From positions 1-20,217 of IMG/VR virus record IMGVR_UViG_3300023481_000126: a stretch of DNA of 20,217 nucleotides; one strand, 5' to 3'. The notes below the pieces were generated by a model. The model was not told where the DNA came from, made no database searches, and saw only the letters and a program-made list of their open reading frames with translations. The translations under genes were made by a program, and so were the position numbers. Shown here piece after piece: positions 1,166-12,254 of the stretch. Numbering within the stretch: position 1 is the first letter of the stretch; each line of letters opens with the position of its first letter. The stretch is from a virus.

Positions 1166-2161
1166 ATGGCTGACGAAACGACCGAGGTTGATACGACGAC
1201 ACTGGCCCCGACCACCGTGGAAGAGGGTTTCGAGGCATTCAGTGCCGGAATGAAGGAGGCCGGCTTCACGGAAGCCCCGGCAGACCCGGCCATGGAGGCT
1301 CTGGGCCTCAAGGACGAGGATCCTGAGATCGTGGCCCCTGGTGACGACACGGCATCCACCTCCGAGTCCACCGAGGCGTCCACCGAGGCGTCCACCGAGG
1401 CCGAGGCGGACAGCGAAGAGGTAGACGACCCCTTTGCTGACCTCTCAGCAGTCGAGCGGATAGACCACAGGGACGCCTTCTCCCTTCTCCGGACAGCCGG
1501 GTTCTCTGTCGATCAGCTCACAGGCATGACTCCGCGGACCATGATCCAGGTTGCGGATGGCCTCAGAGGCCGCCAGACGGCCCAGGACAGCGGCAAGGCG
1601 GTGAAGACGGCTCTGGAGGCACCGGCACCCGAGGCCCCGGCATTCGACATCTCAGCCATGCTGACGCCGGTCAAGGAGGAGTTCGGGGCATCAGGGGCCA
1701 AGGTCTTCCAGGAGGCATTCCAGGCGATCATGGCCCAGGTCCAGAGTTCCGTGGCTGACGGATCCCGCAAGGCCGCCGAACATGCTGACGGCCTACGGCT
1801 CATCAACGACCAGCGAGCTCGGTTCGAGACAGCGAATCCTGGCCTGAGTGACCGCCCGAGCACATGGGAGGGTGTGGTCGAGACGGCCGACGCCCTCGCC
1901 AGGACCGGACGCTACGGGAACGACATCGGAGCCCTGTTCGATGTGGCCGCGAAGGCCATGGGTCTGGACACCCAGGGGGCAGCAAAGCCCAAGGCGTCCA
2001 CGGCCGACATCCTCAAGAGCCAGCCTCGTCGCAAGCTCTCACTTCCCAAGGAGCCGACCCGGACCCCTGAGGCCTGGGACTTCGACCTCTTTGCCCTCCA
2101 GATGAGTGGCCTCTCGAACGAGGCTGCCGTCAAGAAACTCGGAACGCGTCCGCCTGGATAG
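1166..2161 (+). CDS. Capsid scaffold-like protein
   Basis: Likely internal scaffold that templates procapsid assembly and is removed before DNA fills the head. Position immediately before the major capsid gene, 331-residue length, and strongly acidic, Ala/Glu-rich, low-complexity N-terminal third (residues 1-90) fit the scaffold proteins of T7-like phages (T7 gp9 is about 307). A central helical region (about 95-250) is followed by a basic stretch (SQPRRKLSLPKEPTRTP) and a C-terminal segment around WDFDLFALQM, where scaffolds usually contact the coat protein. An ATG one base after the previous stop is preceded by AAGGGGGAA. Residues 68-79 are three STEA repeats encoded by a 12-base tandem repeat. 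No catalytic motif is seen. The call is based on context and composition; scaffolds diverge too fast for motif recognition. Confidence 0.7.
   Translation: MADETTEVDTTTLAPTTVEEGFEAFSAGMKEAGFTEAPADPAMEALGLKDEDPEIVAPGDDTASTSESTEASTEASTEAEADSEEVDDPFADLSAVERIDHRDAFSLLRTAGFSVDQLTGMTPRTMIQVADGLRGRQTAQDSGKAVKTALEAPAPEAPAFDISAMLTPVKEEFGASGAKVFQEAFQAIMAQVQSSVADGSRKAAEHADGLRLINDQRARFETANPGLSDRPSTWEGVVETADALARTGRYGNDIGALFDVAAKAMGLDTQGAAKPKASTADILKSQPRRKLSLPKEPTRTPEAWDFDLFALQMSGLSNEAAVKKLGTRPPG
1367..1402 (+). repeat. 12-base tandem repeat, three copies
   Basis: The unit TCCACCGAGGCG occurs twice exactly and a third time with one final-base change. It encodes Ser-Thr-Glu-Ala three times in the acidic N-terminal region of the scaffold-like protein. 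It keeps the frame, so copy-number change would alter length without breaking the gene. Confidence 0.9.
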
Positions 2162-2201
2162 GAAGACGCAACACCTTTCCCCTCCCCGTCACTAACCCTT
2201 C

Positions 2202-2206
2202 AGGAG
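2202..2206 (+). promoter_or_regulatory. Shine-Dalgarno site selecting the GTG start of the capsid gene
   Basis: AGGAG seven bases upstream of GTG at 2214. This is a near-consensus site and spacing. It supports a GTG start for the gene expected to be the most highly expressed of the window; no upstream in-frame ATG is available with a comparable site. Confidence 0.7.
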
Positions 2207-2213
2207 TATCACA

Positions 2214-3578
2214 GTGGCAACATCTATCAGCGAGATTTTCGCTGACGTCTTCCTTACGACCGGTCCCTTGGTGGCGACCGACAAGGGGAAGGTCATCAAC
2301 GAAATCACCCGCCGAACATATTTCACGAACTTCGTGATGAAGGGGTTCCCGAACTCGGGGGGCTCCATGATGGATATGTTCAACGGCGGCGAAAAGATCC
2401 AGGACACTGTTCTCCTGGACGAGTTCAACACCTTCGAGCGATACGACCCGGACGACGAGTTCACCTACCCCTCGGGTGAGGTGCTCACGAACTGGGAGAT
2501 CCCGTACCGCTACGCGAAAGCTCACCTCAAGTTCACGAAGCATGAGGCGAAGCACAACCAAGGCGGAGGCGGGATGAAGTCCCGGTTCCACCAGTTCAAG
2601 AAGCTATTCACGACCAAGGAACAAAACTTCTGGACCAACGTCTGCAACAGCCTCGAGGACGAATGGTTCAACATCCCGACGAATGCCGAGATGGAGGGCC
2701 AGGCTGGGAAGTTCCCGTACAGCCTTCCTTGTTTCGTCAACGAGTACGTCGCCGGTTCGGTTGCTGGAGAGCAAACGAACGGCATCACGACGAACACGTT
2801 GCCGAATGGATTCACCACGATCCAGCAGATCAACCCGGCCACGAAGACGAAGTGGCGCTGCCAGCAAGCCTTCTACGATGACGTCCCGACGGGGCGTGAC
2901 TGGAGTGGCTGGCCTGCCCTCTCTCGCCTCTGGAAGCGTCTGCAGTACAACAGGCTCCCGAAGCGGGAGGAGCTGGGCGAGGGCATGACCATGCCCGCAG
3001 CCCTCTTCACGTCGGAAGAGGGGTCTACGTACTACGAGCAGGCGCTCGTCCAGACGAACGACCCTCTCTCCTCGGCGTCCACGAGCAAAGGCGCAGGCTC
3101 CATCCAGGGCCCGCTGATGTACCGGACAGCCCCGGTTGAGTTCCTCGAGTCGATGTCTTCAGGCGTCTTCTACCGTGACGCTGTCGCGGTGGGCGCTGTC
3201 GGCGGCGGCCTGAACAAGGGAACCGGCGGCGGCGGCGGCGCTGGAAGTGGCGCTGGCGTTTCCACGTATATCCCCGAGTTCACGGACTCCGTGGACTTCG
3301 ACGACACGGACCTGGTGGGGCAGACAAAGTCGGTCGGGAACACGAACTACACGATCGGGACTCCGAACAACCGGACCGGCCCGAGGTTCGTCCTTCTGGA
3401 CAACCGCTACATTCGGACGTTCTTCCCTGAGGGGGAGATGTTCGAGACGGTGAAGGTCAAGCCTTCGCGTCAGCCCCATTCCACTGTCCTCGTGACGGAC
3501 ATCTGGAACAACAACTTCGTCCGTTCCCCGCGTCGGCTCGGCTACCTGATCCCGGGTACCAACCTCCAGCGCGTCTAA
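2214..3578 (+). CDS. Major capsid protein
   Basis: Probable coat protein forming the icosahedral shell, 454 residues, directly after the scaffold-like gene and before a decoration-like gene. It starts with GTG behind a good AGGAG. The protein is mixed alpha/beta with an N-terminal arm rich in aromatic and acidic residues (ITRRTYFTNFV, DEFNTFERYDPDDEF), followed by YAKAHLKFTKHEAKHN, compatible with a HK97-type coat protein. Residues about 324-350 are an unusual Gly-rich linker that includes five consecutive Gly codons (all GGC), followed by about 100 residues ending in a beta-rich segment (KPSRQPHSTVLVTDIWNNNF). Codon use is more uniform than in the neighbours, with many C-ending codons, as expected for a highly expressed gene. 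I do not recognise the exact capsid family; synteny and size carry most of the weight. Confidence 0.82.
   Translation: MATSISEIFADVFLTTGPLVATDKGKVINEITRRTYFTNFVMKGFPNSGGSMMDMFNGGEKIQDTVLLDEFNTFERYDPDDEFTYPSGEVLTNWEIPYRYAKAHLKFTKHEAKHNQGGGGMKSRFHQFKKLFTTKEQNFWTNVCNSLEDEWFNIPTNAEMEGQAGKFPYSLPCFVNEYVAGSVAGEQTNGITTNTLPNGFTTIQQINPATKTKWRCQQAFYDDVPTGRDWSGWPALSRLWKRLQYNRLPKREELGEGMTMPAALFTSEEGSTYYEQALVQTNDPLSSASTSKGAGSIQGPLMYRTAPVEFLESMSSGVFYRDAVAVGAVGGGLNKGTGGGGGAGSGAGVSTYIPEFTDSVDFDDTDLVGQTKSVGNTNYTIGTPNNRTGPRFVLLDNRYIRTFFPEGEMFETVKVKPSRQPHSTVLVTDIWNNNFVRSPRRLGYLIPGTNLQRV
3225..3239 (+). repeat. (GGC)5 run in the capsid gene
   Basis: Five consecutive GGC codons, in frame, encode Gly 338-342 within the longer Gly/Ala/Ser linker of the major capsid protein. 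The repeat is a candidate for in-frame slippage. Confidence 0.9.
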
Positions 3579-4655: not shown

Positions 4656-4904
4656 ATGCGGATAGACCCTCATTTCCTGACCGAGGTAGGAGCCCGCAGC
4701 AAGGCTCCGATGGACTGCTACATCACCCGATGCCTGGTTGCTGTGAGGGCCTGGGAGAAGTGCATGGCGAGGCTCACGGACGAGCAGCAGCAGGGCCAGG
4801 AATTCGATGTCAGGCTCCTCTGTGGGGATAGGACGGCTCACATCCTGTACCGCTGGAACCCAGGCTTTCAGCGGGGGGTACCAGGAGAACTCAGATGGTC
4901 CTGA
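4656..4904 (+). CDS. Small protein of unknown function (82 aa)
   Basis: Not recognised. The ATG lies two bases after the preceding stop without a clear ribosome site, so translation is probably coupled to the upstream gene. The gene overlaps the next by ten bases (ATGGTCCTGA holds both the next start and this stop). The sequence has a helical, charged middle (VRAWEKCMARLTDEQQQGQE) and a C-terminal segment with aromatic residues (HILYRWNPGFQRG). Four cysteines (21, 26, 36, 56) are spread out and do not make a clear metal site. Its fixed place immediately before the tail-adaptor gene suggests a small virion-assembly protein. Confidence 0.5.
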   Translation: MRIDPHFLTEVGARSKAPMDCYITRCLVAVRAWEKCMARLTDEQQQGQEFDVRLLCGDRTAHILYRWNPGFQRGVPGELRWS

Positions 4905-6448
4905 CCGTTTCCAAGCTCGAGAAGTTCATCAAGCACGCCCTGGACGGCTCCCAGGCGGCTCCTATCTCGTCCCGTGAGCTGGTCAACCAGGTAGGAGAGT
5001 GGTTCTGCTCTCAACAATCCTGGAGGTTCAACAAGCGCCGGGCGAGGCTGAAGGTCCGCCAGTCCAGGACGCTATCGACGAGCACGTACAACGCCGAGGC
5101 CCTGACCATCAAGCAGGTCGGCCTATTCGCTGATTACACCCACACGCCGGGGGATATCATAGAATCCGAGGCCTTGGCGACCCTGCCGAACACGACTCCT
5201 GGTGAGCATCTCATCAAGCGCAAGCTGGATGCCGACACGATCGAGCTCGAGTCCCCTCTCCACAGGAACATGATCGAGTGGACCGAGGTCTTCGCCGACG
5301 GCCTCAATTCGTCCTACTGGACCGAGGTCAATGCTCCCATCTCGTACGTCTCGAACACCACAGGGACCACGGACCCTCTGGGTGGCAACACGGCTGACGA
5401 GATCAGCGATGACAATGCCAGCCTGACGGCCTCCATCCGTAGGGACTTCACTACCACGAGTACCCCGGAGAAGCTCACGAATGGGAAGTCGTATTGCTTC
5501 TCGGTGCATACAAAGCAGATACTGGGTGACACCCAGGGAATGATCCTGACGCTGTCCCATATCGGTGGCACGAAGGCCATCAACCTGACGTTCAACACGA
5601 CCAGCGGGACGGCGAATGCCCCTGTTGTGGGTGGATCAGCGGTCACTGGTGCCGGCTTCGAGACCCTCACAGGTGGCTGGTATCGCCCCTGGGTGACCAT
5701 GAAGTTCGATTCCCAGGACTCGTTGACCATCGGGGCCTCGATCACTCCGAGGAGTTCAGCTGGAGGTACGGGAGCTCACTACTTCTGGGGCACCCAGTTC
5801 GAAGAGGTGGCTGACGGGTCCACAGGCCCATCGAAGTATGAGCGCAGGGACGACGACACGGGGGTCTGGACTCCTGCCACGTTCACGGGCCTGCTGCCGA
5901 ACAACGTCATACCTCTCCCGGGCAACGTTGCCGCTGTCCTCGCTGTGGCCACGAACACTGAGACCCTGGACGGTTTCAGGTGGACAGACCAGGAGAGCAT
6001 GGCCTACGACCGCATAGGCCGCCGCCTGTTCGACAATTACGGTCTCCGCGGTGCTGTGGTCTCATACGCCCCATCGGGCGGTGGAGCCACGCAGTACCGT
6101 CTGGAGCTCGATCCGAACCAGAACTCGACAGACGAGCTCGAGGTTCGCTACATCTCAGGGTGGAACCCAGTTTCCACGGATACAGAGGATCTACCCATAC
6201 CGGCCGATGGGTGGCTCGACGGACTCTTCACGCAGGCTGTGATTGCTTGGGCTCAAGGCCTGGACGCAGAGGATGAGGCATCCCTGTATGTCCGGCTTGA
6301 TACCTTGGCGCAGAGCTCCATGTGGAATACCCACGTGGGCAGAGATGCCGGAGTCCAATCCGACATGGGGCCGACACGCGGGTCAGACATCAATCGCCGC
6401 TACGACGGCGGCAGGAGCCGGTTCCATGATATATCAACATCCGCCTGA
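4895..6448 (+). CDS. Tail adaptor protein (T7 gp11 / tail tubular A-like) with inserted carbohydrate-binding jelly-roll
   Basis: Likely ring protein joining the portal to the tail nozzle. Residues 1-125 (SSRELVNQVGEWFCSQQSWRF, then a short strand-rich part) and residues 320-517 (LPGNVAAVLAVA; DRIGRRLFDNYGLRGAVVSY; YRLELDPNQNSTDELEVRY; ADGWLDGLFTQAVIAWAQGL) follow the pattern of gp11-like adaptors: a helical N-terminus, 'LP..' segment, a 'Y.l.l.P......l.v.Y' strand pair and a long C-terminal helix. Between them, about residues 127-317 form a separate domain: EWTEVFADGLNSSYWTE at its start, SYCFSVHTKQ, GGWYRPWVTM and YFWGTQFEEV near the end. This is the signature of the jelly-roll carbohydrate-binding domains found in many phage tail proteins. 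T7 gp11 is about 196 residues, so the insert explains most of the extra length. GGAG lies eight bases before the ATG. The jelly-roll call is strong; the adaptor call rests on pattern and order. Confidence 0.72.
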   Translation: MVLTVSKLEKFIKHALDGSQAAPISSRELVNQVGEWFCSQQSWRFNKRRARLKVRQSRTLSTSTYNAEALTIKQVGLFADYTHTPGDIIESEALATLPNTTPGEHLIKRKLDADTIELESPLHRNMIEWTEVFADGLNSSYWTEVNAPISYVSNTTGTTDPLGGNTADEISDDNASLTASIRRDFTTTSTPEKLTNGKSYCFSVHTKQILGDTQGMILTLSHIGGTKAINLTFNTTSGTANAPVVGGSAVTGAGFETLTGGWYRPWVTMKFDSQDSLTIGASITPRSSAGGTGAHYFWGTQFEEVADGSTGPSKYERRDDDTGVWTPATFTGLLPNNVIPLPGNVAAVLAVATNTETLDGFRWTDQESMAYDRIGRRLFDNYGLRGAVVSYAPSGGGATQYRLELDPNQNSTDELEVRYISGWNPVSTDTEDLPIPADGWLDGLFTQAVIAWAQGLDAEDEASLYVRLDTLAQSSMWNTHVGRDAGVQSDMGPTRGSDINRRYDGGRSRFHDISTSA

Positions 6449-6466
6449 CCCCTCAGTGGGTGTCCG

Positions 6467-6739
6467 GTGACCCACACCAAGCGCAACTGGGCCCTTCTCC
6501 GTATAGGCCTCGAGGGAGGCGATATCGTCTCTGTGTTCGTGAAGCCTGAGCGGGCCAAGATCCTGCTCGACAAGTGGATGGACAACGAGGACCAGGGGGC
6601 CATGTGGTTTTCAGGGACGATCAACGACAACGTGGACGAGGAGCCGGAGCTCTACACCATCCGGCTCTCCCTGATCCGCTGGATGAGGGTCAGGTTGCCT
6701 CAGACGCCGGCGACTCAGATGGAGGACAGGGATGCCTAG
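6467..6739 (+). CDS. Small protein of unknown function (90 aa, GTG start)
   Basis: Not recognised. The only good start is GTG, 18 bases after the adaptor stop and in the same reading frame, with just a weak GTGGG upstream. This suggests translation by reinitiation after the upstream gene, or low-level read-through of its TGA. The protein is compact, with alternating strands and charged turns (LLRIGLEGGDIVSVFVKPE; DEEPELYTIRLSLIRWMRVRLP), looking like a small alpha/beta fold. It overlaps the nozzle gene by eight bases, whose ribosome site (GGAGG) lies in its last codons. The position between the two tail-tube genes suggests a tail assembly or structural role. Confidence 0.55.
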   Translation: MTHTKRNWALLRIGLEGGDIVSVFVKPERAKILLDKWMDNEDQGAMWFSGTINDNVDEEPELYTIRLSLIRWMRVRLPQTPATQMEDRDA

Positions 6740-9700
6740 CAACAAACTCCCCCTCATATTCCCGTTTGGCGGCCGCTCCGATTCCTCAGCGTTCCACGAC
6801 CAGAGCCCGCTGACGACCCGTGAGGCGACGAACGTCCGCGTCAAGGATCCCAGGACGGGACGGATGCGTGGTGCCCAGAGAAGCGGTCTGACGCAGGTTG
6901 TAGCGCCAACCAGCACCAAGATCAGAGAGATGTGTTCTCTGAAATACGCTCTGAACGAGGGAGTGGATTATGCCTATGCGTTCAACATCTTGCAGAACGG
7001 GGGGGATTTCACGGCAACTGAGTGGGCGGTCGTCAATGGCTGTGTGGTAACGGCTAGCGTAACGGCAGACCCATTCGGCGGGAATAACGGGACGCGGCTA
7101 GATGATACCGACGGCGTTGCTGAGTCCTATCTCGAGTATACTTTGGCTCAGGCTGATTTCCCGAACGGACCTGCTGGGGCGCCTCTCTTCTATCGGTTCT
7201 CGGGCTTCATCAAACAGGATACAGCCCTCAACACGGCGATTGAATACCGCCAGGTTGCGCCGGCGGACAACGTCCAGCGAGCGTCATTCCTGTGGGCTTC
7301 TGAGACCCTGACGCTGACCGACGCAGGGGGTATCGCGCCGGGCACCACAGGGGCTATCACTCAGATTTCAGGGGGATGGTGGAGGATTGACATCACGTTC
7401 CCCCATGTTGATGGCTCTACAGGACATCTCATCCGGCTCATACCGGACTCCACATCAGCCGCATCGACGGGTGAGTCATTCTTCTACGGAGGTATGCTCT
7501 CTCGCGGAACAACGCTGCCAAAGTATACGGCCGACGTCGTTATTCCATGGTCTGACGAGGTAGGCAAGAATGCGGTCCATGTTGATGTGGACCGCCAGGG
7601 GAACGTGTTCTTCCTGTTCTCTCCTGGGACGCTCATCAAGTACAACCCAGACGGGGTGCGGTTGGCTGAATTCTCCGCCGTACCGGATGACCCGGCGCAC
7701 ACATGCAGGGCCTTGTATGTGGACCCGGTACTGAACTGCATCTTCCTTGGGGTAAGCAGCGGAGGTGACGTTGAGACTGCCAAGTTCTGGTTCATCCTGT
7801 CGGATGAGGATGGGAACCTGTCAGCCCCTCACTCCACGACCCCGGGGTATTTCATCGAGGAAATCAGGGTTGTCAGGGACAAGCTCTATGTGGCTGGGAA
7901 CAATCCAACAACTGCGCAGGCCGTGGTCCTGGTCTATGAGGGAATCACAGCGAATGCGCCTCCGGTTCTGGTGGCGACGCATCCGGCTCCGTTCCCGATC
8001 AACGGTCTAGATATCGACAACGAAGGCGAGATGTTCGTTGCGTCAGGGACAGACACGACACACCTCACGGCATCGGGGTCGCCGCCCCAGTACATTAAAT
8101 TCAGGGGGATCCACCCAGCGGAGCCAAACTTCCGACCCGTAATGATCGGAGATTGGACTCCGGTGGATCTCGATAACGCTGAGAGCCGCATATGGTTCTG
8201 GTGGAGAGCTCGAGATATCACGACTGCTGACACCGCAGGATCGGCGGCTGTCACTCCTGGCGTTGAGGTTGTCACGATGCGGGACAGGTCGGGCCAAAAT
8301 AGACATATGACTGCCGCTACCCCTCCGGGCGGTTCCGCGGACCTTGGCGCCACCTACCGTGAACAGGGCGGGATTCCCTCACTGCAATTCACTGGCATCG
8401 AGGGATACCGAAGTGGTCTGAACACCACGACAACAAACGCAGCTGGTGGTTCTCAGAACACCATGCTGCCGGCGTATGCTGGGGTTGACCTGCCCCTAAC
8501 GACGGGCGGGGTTTTTGCTCTATTTATTACGTGTCGGCCGACCGAATCTCTATCCCGCAAGGCTCTGTTTTATCAGCCCTCAGATACCAGTCCTTCGACG
8601 GAAGGGCATATGCTATTCGTTAACCGCCAGTGCGGTGAGATTATATCCACACCTACGATTGGCTACCTATCGTACTTTGCGCAGACCGGAGGTGTTGCGG
8701 GCGTTGATGTGGGAGCCTGCGGTGCAGGGCCCTTTCACCTCTACACTGGCATTTTCCCAACCGACCTATCATGGACAGCTGAATCAGAGGGGACTGACGC
8801 CGTTATCATAACTGTGGTGTGGGATGGAGGAACTAGCGAGGCAACCGCAGGCCCAGCCACAGGCAAAACCAGGTCACTGGTACGGCTTAATGGCAGGCCC
8901 CTTGACCGTGCCCTTGGCAAGCAACTCCTCACATCTGGTTCTAGTAGAACCGAGTTTGGATTTTACACTGGGTCAGGATCTTCTGCGGCAACGAACTACA
9001 TCGGAGAGGTCTATGAGGTTCTGGTTTTGGACCGAAAAACCCGAGGCATGTCCGAGGCTACGGACGATGGAACCAACCTCATCTTGACCCACCAGGCGCA
9101 CCCCGATATTGCCACTGGTGCTCAAACTGTTAACGAGATGACTCAGATTGAGGGATACATGGCCCATGGCGTTGGGCTTGGGCATCTTCTCGACAACGAG
9201 ACAGAAACCTATCCCCATCCGTATGGCCTCAAGGCTTCCTCAACGAACGGTGCCTCCTCAATTATGGGACCGCCCAACGAGGCTGAAACCGGAGCTGAGG
9301 CTCTGGCCGCGTTAAACATCCCGTCCACCACAAAGATCAAGTCCACTGGCAAGAAGGCTTGGACCTACAACAACGAGACGGAAACAGAAGGGGTCCTGGC
9401 AAACGAGGGCGGCGCGGGTCATGCGGTCCGAGTGAAAGACGGTGATGTGTATTCCTTGGGTCCGCAAGCGGATGAGATGCGAACCGTCTCAGATCAGAAG
9501 GCCTACGCCAGGAAGATCATCGACAAGGGGGATACATTCTCCGATTCCAGCGCGGATGGCGCATGGTCCAGGGGCGGCGGATTCACTCTCGATTTTGCCA
9601 CACAGAAGGCTCGCATCGACGTGGACAAGTTCGGGACGGTGTATATACCTGTGGCGCAAAACACAGCGTCATCCCTGCTCGATGTGCTCGACTCCACCGG

Positions 9701-11219
9701 GGCCGAGATATTGCGACTGATCCCTGGCACAACGCAGATTTATATGACGTGTGCTCATCACGACTCCAGGATCCCCGACTATGGGACTGACGTGATAGGT
9801 CTAGCGAGATCGATGTATGCAGGGTTTGCCGACCTCACCGCGGGGAACACCCTCAAGGAGGCTCGCAAGTTTTTCCTGGTGGATGCCACCGTGACGGATC
9901 AGGCCCAGACCAGGACTGTGAACCTGTATGCCCAGGGCCAGGATCTCCGCACATTTACGATCGGCGGGTCCACGACGCTCGTCTCGGCAGGCCTCTTCAA
10001 CGCCGCTGGGTCTGTCTTCTGTGTCCCGACGCGGAACGAGGTCGTCCTCATCGACGGCTCGACTTACCAGGTGTACAGCGGGCCAGATGCCACGGTCTCT
10101 GTCCTGACGTCAACATCCCCTGGGGATATCCCTCTGAATGCCCGGTTCGGGGTGTTCTGGCGCTCGAGGCTACTGCTGGCCGGGTTCCCTGACGTGGGGG
10201 CCAAGCTGGTCGGCTCAGCCATCGGTGATATCCGCAACTGGGATATCGCTCCGCCTCGGGAGGAGCTGGGCTCAGCCTTCCTGCTTTCCCTGAACGAGGT
10301 CGATGAGGCGCCGCCTGACGTCATCACAGGGCTCATCGATGCCAGGGACGATCTTCTCATCGTCGGTGGCTCCAGGACGATGACGAGGCTCACAGGGGAT
10401 CCGCTGTCAGGTGGCCAGTTCCACAACCTCTCGACAGAGATTGGGATGGCCTGGGGGAATGCGTGGACGAAGGATCCGCAGGGGCGGATCTACTTTTTCG
10501 GCACGAATCCTCCGGGGCTGTATGGTGTAGGAGAGGGCGGGGGGATAGCCCCGCTCACGCAGGGGACTCTTGAGGACTCGGAGTTCCAGGCGATCGACTT
10601 CTCGACTGTCCGCATCAAACTCCTATGGAACCCACGAGATGAAGGAATCCACATCTTCCAATTCCCCTTCGGTGCCGGGGGATCCATTCGCCGCGCGTGG
10701 TTCTGGGAGTACAAGACGCACGATCTCGTCCAGCGGCCTCCCATCTGGCCTGACGTCTTTGGAGTGTCCGGGGTGCAACCGACGGCGGGTGTTGTACTCG
10801 AGGGGCTGGTCCAGAACGAGAGACGGCTCATGCTTGGATGTGAGGACGGCGGATTGCGCGTGTGGGATGCAGCTGCAAGTTCGGACGACGGCAACGCCAT
10901 TGACTCGAACGTCCTCTTCCCTCCGGTCACGAAGCAGTCCATTCCCAGATCACTGGCCCTGCGAGGGCTGAAGGTGTTCCTGGGGACGGATAACGACGGG
11001 TGTCTGGTTCAGTACTACGGTGCCAACGAGGCCGACCGGTTGGGCCGGGAGGTCCAGGAGTTCCAGGCTCACTCAAGCGAAAACCCCACATTCAGGCGAC
11101 GTGTGCGGGGGAACAACATCTTCGTGCGGTTCCGGAATGCCAGGAACAACGAATTCTGGGCGTATGAGAATTCCTATCTGAAGCTGGCGAGAAGCCAGAA
11201 ACCGAGGAGTGGGAGATGA
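6732..11219 (+). CDS. Tail nozzle protein (T7 gp12 / tail tubular B-like) with jelly-roll and LamG-like inserts
   Basis: Likely nozzle that closes the short tail and opens for DNA ejection; 1495 residues against about 794 for T7 gp12. The start (PLIFPFGGRSDSSAFHDQSP, then TNVRVKDPRTGRMRGAQRSG) is typical of gp12-like proteins. Residues about 83-270 are a jelly-roll insert of the same class as in the adaptor (TATEWAVVNG; GGWWRIDITF; SFFYGGMLSRGTTLPKY). Propeller-like repeats follow (VHVDVDRQGNVFFLF; INGLDIDNEGEMFVAS). Residues about 487-775 are a concanavalin/LamG-like insert: WFWWRARDI, then MRDRSGQNRHMTA, GIPSLQFTG, and YIGEVYEVLVLDRKTRGM at its end. Propeller sequence resumes (ARIDVDKFGTVYIPV) and the C-terminal 400 residues hold the conserved nozzle part (RFGVFWRSRLLLAGFP; ITGLIDARDDLLIVGG). 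Hand-counted GC is 92/180 in the LamG segment 8521-8700 against 120/180 at 10141-10320, suggesting recent acquisition. GGAGG lies eight bases before ATG. Confidence 0.78.
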   Translation: MPSNKLPLIFPFGGRSDSSAFHDQSPLTTREATNVRVKDPRTGRMRGAQRSGLTQVVAPTSTKIREMCSLKYALNEGVDYAYAFNILQNGGDFTATEWAVVNGCVVTASVTADPFGGNNGTRLDDTDGVAESYLEYTLAQADFPNGPAGAPLFYRFSGFIKQDTALNTAIEYRQVAPADNVQRASFLWASETLTLTDAGGIAPGTTGAITQISGGWWRIDITFPHVDGSTGHLIRLIPDSTSAASTGESFFYGGMLSRGTTLPKYTADVVIPWSDEVGKNAVHVDVDRQGNVFFLFSPGTLIKYNPDGVRLAEFSAVPDDPAHTCRALYVDPVLNCIFLGVSSGGDVETAKFWFILSDEDGNLSAPHSTTPGYFIEEIRVVRDKLYVAGNNPTTAQAVVLVYEGITANAPPVLVATHPAPFPINGLDIDNEGEMFVASGTDTTHLTASGSPPQYIKFRGIHPAEPNFRPVMIGDWTPVDLDNAESRIWFWWRARDITTADTAGSAAVTPGVEVVTMRDRSGQNRHMTAATPPGGSADLGATYREQGGIPSLQFTGIEGYRSGLNTTTTNAAGGSQNTMLPAYAGVDLPLTTGGVFALFITCRPTESLSRKALFYQPSDTSPSTEGHMLFVNRQCGEIISTPTIGYLSYFAQTGGVAGVDVGACGAGPFHLYTGIFPTDLSWTAESEGTDAVIITVVWDGGTSEATAGPATGKTRSLVRLNGRPLDRALGKQLLTSGSSRTEFGFYTGSGSSAATNYIGEVYEVLVLDRKTRGMSEATDDGTNLILTHQAHPDIATGAQTVNEMTQIEGYMAHGVGLGHLLDNETETYPHPYGLKASSTNGASSIMGPPNEAETGAEALAALNIPSTTKIKSTGKKAWTYNNETETEGVLANEGGAGHAVRVKDGDVYSLGPQADEMRTVSDQKAYARKIIDKGDTFSDSSADGAWSRGGGFTLDFATQKARIDVDKFGTVYIPVAQNTASSLLDVLDSTGAEILRLIPGTTQIYMTCAHHDSRIPDYGTDVIGLARSMYAGFADLTAGNTLKEARKFFLVDATVTDQAQTRTVNLYAQGQDLRTFTIGGSTTLVSAGLFNAAGSVFCVPTRNEVVLIDGSTYQVYSGPDATVSVLTSTSPGDIPLNARFGVFWRSRLLLAGFPDVGAKLVGSAIGDIRNWDIAPPREELGSAFLLSLNEVDEAPPDVITGLIDARDDLLIVGGSRTMTRLTGDPLSGGQFHNLSTEIGMAWGNAWTKDPQGRIYFFGTNPPGLYGVGEGGGIAPLTQGTLEDSEFQAIDFSTVRIKLLWNPRDEGIHIFQFPFGAGGSIRRAWFWEYKTHDLVQRPPIWPDVFGVSGVQPTAGVVLEGLVQNERRLMLGCEDGGLRVWDAAASSDDGNAIDSNVLFPPVTKQSIPRSLALRGLKVFLGTDNDGCLVQYYGANEADRLGREVQEFQAHSSENPTFRRRVRGNNIFVRFRNARNNEFWAYENSYLKLARSQKPRSGR

Positions 11220-11401
11220 AAAGCATCCAATCCGCCGTTGTGTCGATGTTCCAGCGAATGGCGTATGAGGGTGCGTCATATTCCCGATACCGCCAGGCCG
11301 CGCAGATTGTGCGCACTCAAGGTATTACCGCTCCTTATTCGCATCCGGTGTATCCGTCTGACTTCATGCTCCCGGTTGACGGAGAGGACTTCGAGGAGTA
11401 A
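11216..11401 (+). CDS. Small protein of unknown function (61 aa)
   Basis: Not recognised. The ATG overlaps the nozzle stop (ATGA) and is preceded by GAGGAGTGGGAG, so it is translated in step with the nozzle gene. The N-terminal half is probably helical (SIQSAVVSMFQRMAYEGASY), and the C-terminus is acidic (DGEDFEE). It lacks a signal peptide or membrane segment. The next gene starts at its last stop base. In T7 this slot, between gp12 and gp14, holds gp13, a small internal protein, but no sequence likeness supports equating them. Confidence 0.5.
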   Translation: MKSIQSAVVSMFQRMAYEGASYSRYRQAAQIVRTQGITAPYSHPVYPSDFMLPVDGEDFEE

Positions 11402-11658
11402 TGGGACTTCGTAGAAACAGAGCCAGGAACACAGCACGAGGCATATCGCCGTCCCTTCAGGGGTCTGGTGGTGATCCTCGAGCGAGGACTGTGGCTCAGG
11501 GGCAACTGACCGACCACGACCTGGATGGGAAAACGATCGAACTTCGGAACGGTCGCCTTAGAATCATGGCCGCTGACGGGATCGCAGAGCCCACGGCGGA
11601 CGTCGAGAGTCTGCGGATAGCCGTCTGCAAGCTCCTTCTTCAACTTAGAGGTGGATGA
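11401..11658 (+). CDS. Small basic protein of unknown function (85 aa)
   Basis: Not recognised. It shares one base with the preceding stop (TAATG) and has GAGGAG just upstream. The N-terminal 30 residues are basic and Gly/Ser-rich (RRNRARNTARG), probably disordered and perhaps nucleic-acid binding. Residues about 38-57 form short strands (DGKTIELRNGRLRIMAADG), and the end is a helix (VESLRIAVCKLLLQLRGG). It overlaps the gp14-like gene by a few bases. Its position suggests an inner-virion or assembly protein. Confidence 0.5.
   Translation: MGLRRNRARNTARGISPSLQGSGGDPRARTVAQGQLTDHDLDGKTIELRNGRLRIMAADGIAEPTADVESLRIAVCKLLLQLRGG
11647..11651 (+). promoter_or_regulatory. Shine-Dalgarno site deciding the start of the gp14-like gene
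   Basis: AGAGG lies nine bases before ATG at 11661 but only three before ATG at 11655, favouring the second Met as the true start. Confidence 0.55.
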
Positions 11659-11660
11659 CA

Positions 11661-12254
11661 ATGGCCCTACAAGCAATCGCAGGTCTAGCTGGCCTTGGAG
11701 TCAACATTTTCGGCCAGATGGAGGCCAACAGGCGCCGGAAGCGCCTTCAGGCTCAGGGCCTTGGCATCCTGGACCGCCAGCTTGCGGAAGAGTCCCAGTT
11801 CGCCGCCGGCCAGCAGCAGCAACTGACCCAGGGCATCCAGGACATCAATACGGGGTTCGACAATGCCCAGATAGCGGCAGCGAACCAAGGCCGTTCAGCG
11901 AGGCGCTCAGCCCTTGACCGCTCAGCGAGCCTTCAGTCTCGAGCCTCGTCCCAGTTGGCTGGGTCAGGCCTCCTGAATTCCTCGGTCCAGTTGAACATCG
12001 ACCAGGGAATCGGGGCTCAGACGGATCGGAGGTTGGCTGAGATCGACCAGGGGTTATCCGGCCTCTTCTCGAACCTGGCGACGCAGCGGGCCGGGGCCCT
12101 ATCTCAGGGCCGCCAGGGGCTTGCGAACTTCTTTGGCCAGCGGCAGGCGAGGCGGGCTCAGTTGAATGACACGCGGTTCGATCTGTTGAACACGCAATCC
12201 AACTTCCAGCCGGTTGACATCGGCGGCCTGGTTTCTGCTTTCGGTGGAGGGTAG
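11661..12254 (+). CDS. Internal virion protein, T7 gp14-like
   Basis: Probable inner-core protein ejected first to form a pore in the outer membrane. Length (197 residues from the chosen start, 199 from the ATG six bases upstream) matches T7 gp14 (196), as does its place after the nozzle and before two larger inner proteins. The N-terminus is hydrophobic (LQAIAGLAGLGVNIFGQ), followed by a long Gln/Ala/Arg-rich helical region (RRRKRLQAQGLGILDRQLAE; QQQQLTQGIQDINTGF). A Ser/Ala-rich centre (RSALDRSASLQSRASSQ) with a SGLLNSS motif recurs in such phage proteins. There is a Gly-rich end (DIGGLVSAFGGG). The second ATG is preferred because AGAGG sits nine bases ahead of it. The gp14 call is based on size, composition and order. 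Confidence 0.66.
   Translation: MALQAIAGLAGLGVNIFGQMEANRRRKRLQAQGLGILDRQLAEESQFAAGQQQQLTQGIQDINTGFDNAQIAAANQGRSARRSALDRSASLQSRASSQLAGSGLLNSSVQLNIDQGIGAQTDRRLAEIDQGLSGLFSNLATQRAGALSQGRQGLANFFGQRQARRAQLNDTRFDLLNTQSNFQPVDIGGLVSAFGGG
12246..12251 (+). promoter_or_regulatory. Shine-Dalgarno site deciding the start of the gp15-like gene
   Basis: GGAGGG, seven bases before ATG at 12259, supports that codon over the in-frame ATG at 12214, which lies inside the upstream gene and lacks a comparable site. Confidence 0.7.

Follow-up and report, generated by a model that had tools for sequence, protein, structure and literature searches.

Jelly-roll domains of one family inserted in the adaptor- and nozzle-position proteins of an uncultured short-tailed phage

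The window analysed here, the 20,217-nucleotide (nt) stretch at positions 1 to 20,217 of IMG/VR virus record IMGVR_UViG_3300023481_000126, comprises the virion genes of a short-tailed phage that has not been cultured. Two of its proteins, at the adaptor (gp11-like) and nozzle (gp12-like) positions of the tail tube, each carry an inserted domain of the same curated family, assigned to the jelly rolls of the carbohydrate-binding-module (CBM) type, and relatives encode homologues in which the corresponding sites are empty. The inserted jelly rolls most likely serve a polyvalent, low-affinity grip on host surface polysaccharide, a reading to which a probability of about two in three is given. The domain is already known as a common one among the tail proteins of phages, and DEV gp83 is an earlier case of a podovirus adaptor with a lectin-type insert. 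Searches of open-access literature turned up no description of a single family with insertions in the adaptor-position as well as the nozzle-position protein and an empty site for each.

By sequence comparison, the two segments share one curated domain family, and their similarity is beyond chance. The NCBIfam model NF048003 (the “phage head spike fiber” domain, named after gene transfer agents and including the capsule-binding head fibre of RcGTA) scores the gp11 copy at 51.8 bits and the gp12 copy at 42.5 bits against a curated cut-off of 36, covering profile positions 8 to 163 and 7 to 165 of 182, respectively. A scan of the whole window with this model returned exactly two matches, the gp11 copy at 53.3 bits and the gp12 copy at 47.6 bits. 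An independent hidden Markov model (HMM) was built from 59 viral contigs with the domain and copies from two phage records (61 sequences, 39 after removal of redundancy, and no window sequence among them); it gave the gp11 copy 54 bits and the gp12 copy 27.5 bits, while the best of 200 shuffled controls reached 5.4 bits. BLASTP of one segment against the other gave an E value of 0.004 at 26% identity. The preliminary description had placed matching domains at residues 127 to 317 of the 517-amino-acid (aa) open reading frame (ORF) and 83 to 270 of the 1495-aa ORF, and both the match and its position were borne out. Searches of the two host proteins against Pfam and PHROGs returned no family, and neither a phmmer search of both against the PDB nor a two-sequence nozzle profile produced a match there.

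The shared strand layout that had been proposed holds in part. The GGWYR/GGWWRI, F(W/Y)G and P.KY motifs occupy genuine family positions in a 40-sequence alignment, where the family's GWYR and (Y/F)(W/Y)G motifs are seen in both copies, but the pairing of the opening strands was displaced by one element: “TATEWAVV” of the gp12 copy aligns with “SSYWTEV” of the gp11 copy (about residues 139 to 144), and “NMIEWTEVF” of the latter (residues 125 to 133) aligns with the preceding family element, “TNL..SE.F”. Profile and structure searches agree with the earlier view that this class of phage jelly roll is known from spike fibres, baseplates and tail proteins. RcGTA Rcc01080 and a phage tail fibre gp17 are likewise matched by the family profile, and further members belong to proteins of tails, baseplates and fibres. 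With 448 of 50,697 phage records matching one member, the domain is a common one. The idea that two copies are remarkable in themselves was dropped, since 11 of 59 loci have the domain on two or more ORFs inside the stretch examined.

The gp12 copy is predicted to fold as a CBM-type jelly roll. Its AlphaFold model, computed with 40 sequences, has twelve strands, a mean predicted local distance difference test score (pLDDT) of 88.6 and a predicted template modelling score of 0.85. The nearest solved structures are Pa193 gp46 (Z 20.7) and E217 gp45 (Z 18.6), with 177 residues superposed at a root mean square deviation of 2.3 Å, and the next PDB matches are CBM22, CBM16, CBM4, CBM29 and phage tailspike modules at Z scores of about 11 to 13 (CBM22 and CBM16 at about 13). 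The same fold is assigned to the gp11 copy through its family match, because the model of full-length gp11, computed from two sequences, reached a pLDDT of only 36 and is unusable.

Empty sites were sought among relatives, of which the 46-kb contig L002 is the only close one (the 13-kb L001 has the same genes). When viral contigs were scanned with gp11, gp12 or the capsid protein as query, nothing came up beyond the L001 and L002 contigs, and scans of genome contigs returned none. More distant relatives were found by tblastn with the large structural protein, after which nozzle homologues were recognised in L089, L105, L094 and L098; vB_Pun_Y3, HTVC027P and phi19:3 share the large structural protein and have no recognisable gp11 or gp12 homologue in the stretches examined. 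The adaptor-position gene of G003 (the L089 contig; L168) encodes a 337-aa homologue that lacks the gp11 jelly roll, aligning to profile columns 1 to 112 and 326 to 505 in one frame with twelve residues between. The L002 nozzle, 59% identical to that of the window, has no counterpart of window residues about 91 to 272, and the nozzle homologue of L089 likewise lacks the jelly-roll insert. Judging from these alignments, both jelly rolls are true inserts, because homologues align on both sides of each segment and yet do without it. The preliminary description had named alignment to the core of insert-free homologues as the outcome that would count against insertion; neither segment aligned in that way. 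That the segments are instead conserved core of the adaptor and nozzle proteins might be read from the L002 adaptor, which keeps its jelly roll at 62.0% identity to the window, against 61.8 and 61.7% in the flanks. The full-length G003 adaptor and the L002 and L089 nozzles contradict this explanation, which is left with next to no credibility.

The two copies are 26% identical to each other, whereas the gp11 copy is 62% identical to its L002 orthologue; the gp12 copy is therefore no recent duplicate, and a recent intragenomic duplication was ruled out. Of the two origins first envisaged, duplication or independent capture, only a recent form of the former is thereby excluded. In a tree of 40 sequences the gp12 copy stands next to the gp11 copies, as would be expected of a single ancient duplication in this phage lineage followed by loss of the nozzle copy in the L002 lineage, a history that fits either function. 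However, this placement lacks significant support (71/70), and at 2.93 changes per site the branch of the gp12 copy is very long, as with long-branch attraction. The distance between the copies relative to that between gp11 orthologues also speaks against it. Furthermore, repeated capture is favoured because a different domain occupies this nozzle site in relatives, and ancient duplication is accordingly regarded as possible but doubtful.

The proposed function starts from the position of the inserts. Each would lie in a loop of a tube protein and so would form part of a ring of lectin-type modules around the tail, and such a ring could keep the virion near the cell during the nozzle's search for the envelope; capsule, lipopolysaccharide (LPS) or exopolysaccharide of the host are candidate ligands. 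SU10 has a dodecameric adaptor and a hexameric nozzle (PMC9509320). A stoichiometry of 12 + 6 is also that of T7. By this count a tail would bear 12 + 6 copies of the domain, presumably exposed outwards, binding glycan and contributing to adsorption. That a ring of weak glycan grips is the most likely reading follows from three precedents. In RcGTA, the head fibres are what fixes the particle to the host capsule (PMC7296036, PMC10218006), and the presence of capsule improves the binding of tagged fibre protein to cells (PMC10218006). Tube proteins of podoviruses can be involved in adsorption: TTPA and TTPB of Vibrio phage OWB bind a host membrane protein as receptor (PMC7241545). The adaptor gp83 of phage DEV has an outward-facing lectin-type insert of 101 aa (PMC10925440).

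Several points weigh against polysaccharide binding. The gp11 copy is without a confident structure, and the adaptor and nozzle assignments draw on the order of the genes, on relatives and on a single weak profile match (E 0.003). Phage domains of the CBM-like kind may also act as structural spacers or interfaces, and gp45, the family member in E217, anchors fibres as a subunit of the baseplate triplex (PMC10329688). The jelly rolls could instead be docking or spacer elements, that is, fibre attachment sites or protein-protein interfaces within the virion that bind no sugar. The best structural matches, E217 gp45 and Pa193 gp46, are indeed baseplate triplex subunits holding a tail fibre (PMC10329688, PMC11042391), the adaptor of SU10 and T7 bears the dock of the long tail fibre (PMC9509320), and the L002 contig encodes a separate 686-aa protein that is possibly a fibre or adhesin. 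Nevertheless, a dock needed for infection should be conserved, yet a relative whose nozzle is 59% identical has no nozzle copy and G003 has no adaptor copy. Moreover, the E217 fibre is held by a loop of gp45, residues 76 to 123 (PMC10329688), which lies outside the jelly roll (family match at residues 197 to 392). A docking role is on this evidence considered unlikely, and a grip on host polysaccharide is preferred.

The two host proteins are adaptor and nozzle by position and probably build the short tail. The virion genes of the window all lie on one strand, in the order of a fragment, a scaffold-like protein, the major capsid protein, small proteins, the 517-aa protein, a 90-aa protein, the 1495-aa protein, proteins ordered like internal virion proteins and, last, the 1851-aa protein (Table 1). 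This sequence of capsid, tail tubular A, tail tubular B and internal proteins is that of T7 and of most of nine T7-type phages compared. The adaptor-position genes of the relatives G004 and L105 match Pfam SU10_adaptor PF24175 (E 7e-14 and 3e-12, respectively). For the window adaptor, Pfam gave no match at E values up to 1, including Tube PF17212 and SU10 adaptor PF24175, and its profile showed no significant similarity to 10 T7-type gp11 proteins by hhalign; the window nozzle has no Pfam match to PF25675. Two-sequence profiles of both proteins gave nothing significant against T7 gp11 and gp12, and the reversed nozzle outscored the real one. A six-sequence nozzle profile aligned weakly with T7-type nozzles over 185 columns, at T7 residues 337 to 545 in the propeller region (E 0.003 with a probability of 10%, against E 0.38 for the reversed control), a match that appeared only once L089, L094, L098 and L105 had joined the profile. 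Separately, the adaptor-position gene of L105 (L105:21-1490) looks like a tandem duplication of the SU10-type adaptor domain in one chain, with two stretches matching PF24175.

Table 1. Virion genes and inserted domains located in the window
Feature	Coordinates	Strand	Basis
Major capsid protein	2214..3578	+	NF033394 capsid_maj_Podo, E 3e-11, under the model's own cut-off
Adaptor-position (gp11-like) protein, 517 aa, carrying jelly-roll copy 1	4895..6448	+	ORF
Jelly-roll copy 1, residues 125-316 of adaptor-position protein	5267..5842	+	NF048003 match, residues 125-304
Nozzle-position (gp12-like) protein, 1495 aa, carrying jelly-roll copy 2	6732..11219	+	ORF
Jelly-roll copy 2, about residues 85-272 of nozzle-position protein	6984..7547	+	NF048003 match, residues 84-260
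Second nozzle insert, about residues 458-781	8103..9074	+	Concanavalin A/LamG-like lectin suggested by sequence pattern
Large virion structural protein, internal-protein position, 1851 aa	13619..19174	+	phrog_22602, E 2e-43; tblastn relatives

The nozzle insertion site is, on the alignments of relatives, a hot spot. After a conserved N-terminal region of about 50 residues, the jelly roll follows in the window and next to nothing in L002 and L089, whereas in L105 and G004 the place is taken by a beta-rich domain of another kind. The L105 and G004 nozzles match each other in their N-terminal parts, beta-rich domain included, at an E value of 3e-21. A second insert in the nozzle is common to the window and L002 and absent from the L089 and L105 nozzles. 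Its GC content at third codon positions (GC3) is 54.6%, compared with about 71% in the flanks, and it has no family match, the LamG model PF13385 included. It seems that the tail tubes of this group of viruses gain and lose parts for gripping the host. It is a more speculative and rather improbable extension that the tail tube is the main, rapidly reshuffled host-recognition surface here, with fixed adaptor and nozzle loops acting as sockets in which unrelated domains of lectin type (the CBM jelly roll or LamG-like ones) are exchanged from one lineage to another, replacing tail fibres or working beside them.

Other features of the relatives were recorded alongside these comparisons. At about residues 262 to 366, the L002 nozzle (L002:8001-12230) has a glycine/threonine-rich repeat insert of its own (VAEGSLTPHSGTAHATITV...); the corresponding part of the window nozzle spans only some 12 residues. 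In G004 (L169), a free-standing protein of 462 aa, encoded between the adaptor and nozzle genes (2035-3423, minus strand), bears the NF048003 domain. The 686-aa protein of the L002 contig (L170:1210-3270, minus strand) looks beta-rich, with a C1q/TNF-like pattern and no Pfam match, and is a candidate separate adhesin. The same contig (L171) encodes a sulfatase (10371-11684, minus strand; PF00884, E 9e-29) and a sigma-70 region 2 protein (2496-3200, plus strand; PF04542, E 2e-9), and these two genes are either phage-borne or part of a piece of host DNA.

Host recognition by short-tailed phages is usually sought in fibres and spikes. Fibre searches by whole-gene annotation miss modules such as those described here, because Pfam and PHROGs gave nothing for either protein. 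Since relatives supply a clean empty counterpart of each site, what it means for a tube to gain or lose a single adhesin module is open to direct study.

Among known systems, SU10, with its PF24175 adaptor, and the SU10 and T7 nozzles share the gene order of the window, although the window adaptor itself is without a Pfam match. OWB TTPA and TTPB are adaptor and nozzle proteins involved in host recognition (PMC7241545), and KP32 TTPA is reported to be dual-function (PMC5440376); the available parts of these two reports name no CBM-type insert. DEV gp83, from the Schitoviridae, is a podovirus head-to-tail adaptor with an outward-facing lectin-type insert (PMC10925440). That insert is placed within the helix bundle, between H2 and H3, and is half as large as the one in the window adaptor; the available part of the account mentions no matching insert in the remainder of the DEV tail (PMC10925440). 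E217 gp45 and Pa193 gp46 (PDB 8env and 9b45) provide the nearest solved fold to the gp12 copy, at Z scores of 18.6 to 20.7, but are subunits of a contractile-tail baseplate rather than a podovirus-type tube and are only about 17% identical to it. RcGTA Rcc01080 (PDB 6tb9, chain F3) belongs to the same NF048003 family, whose profiles match its residues 79 to 273; it is a separate fibre on the base of the head spike, whereas the window copies are inserted within two proteins at tail-tube positions.

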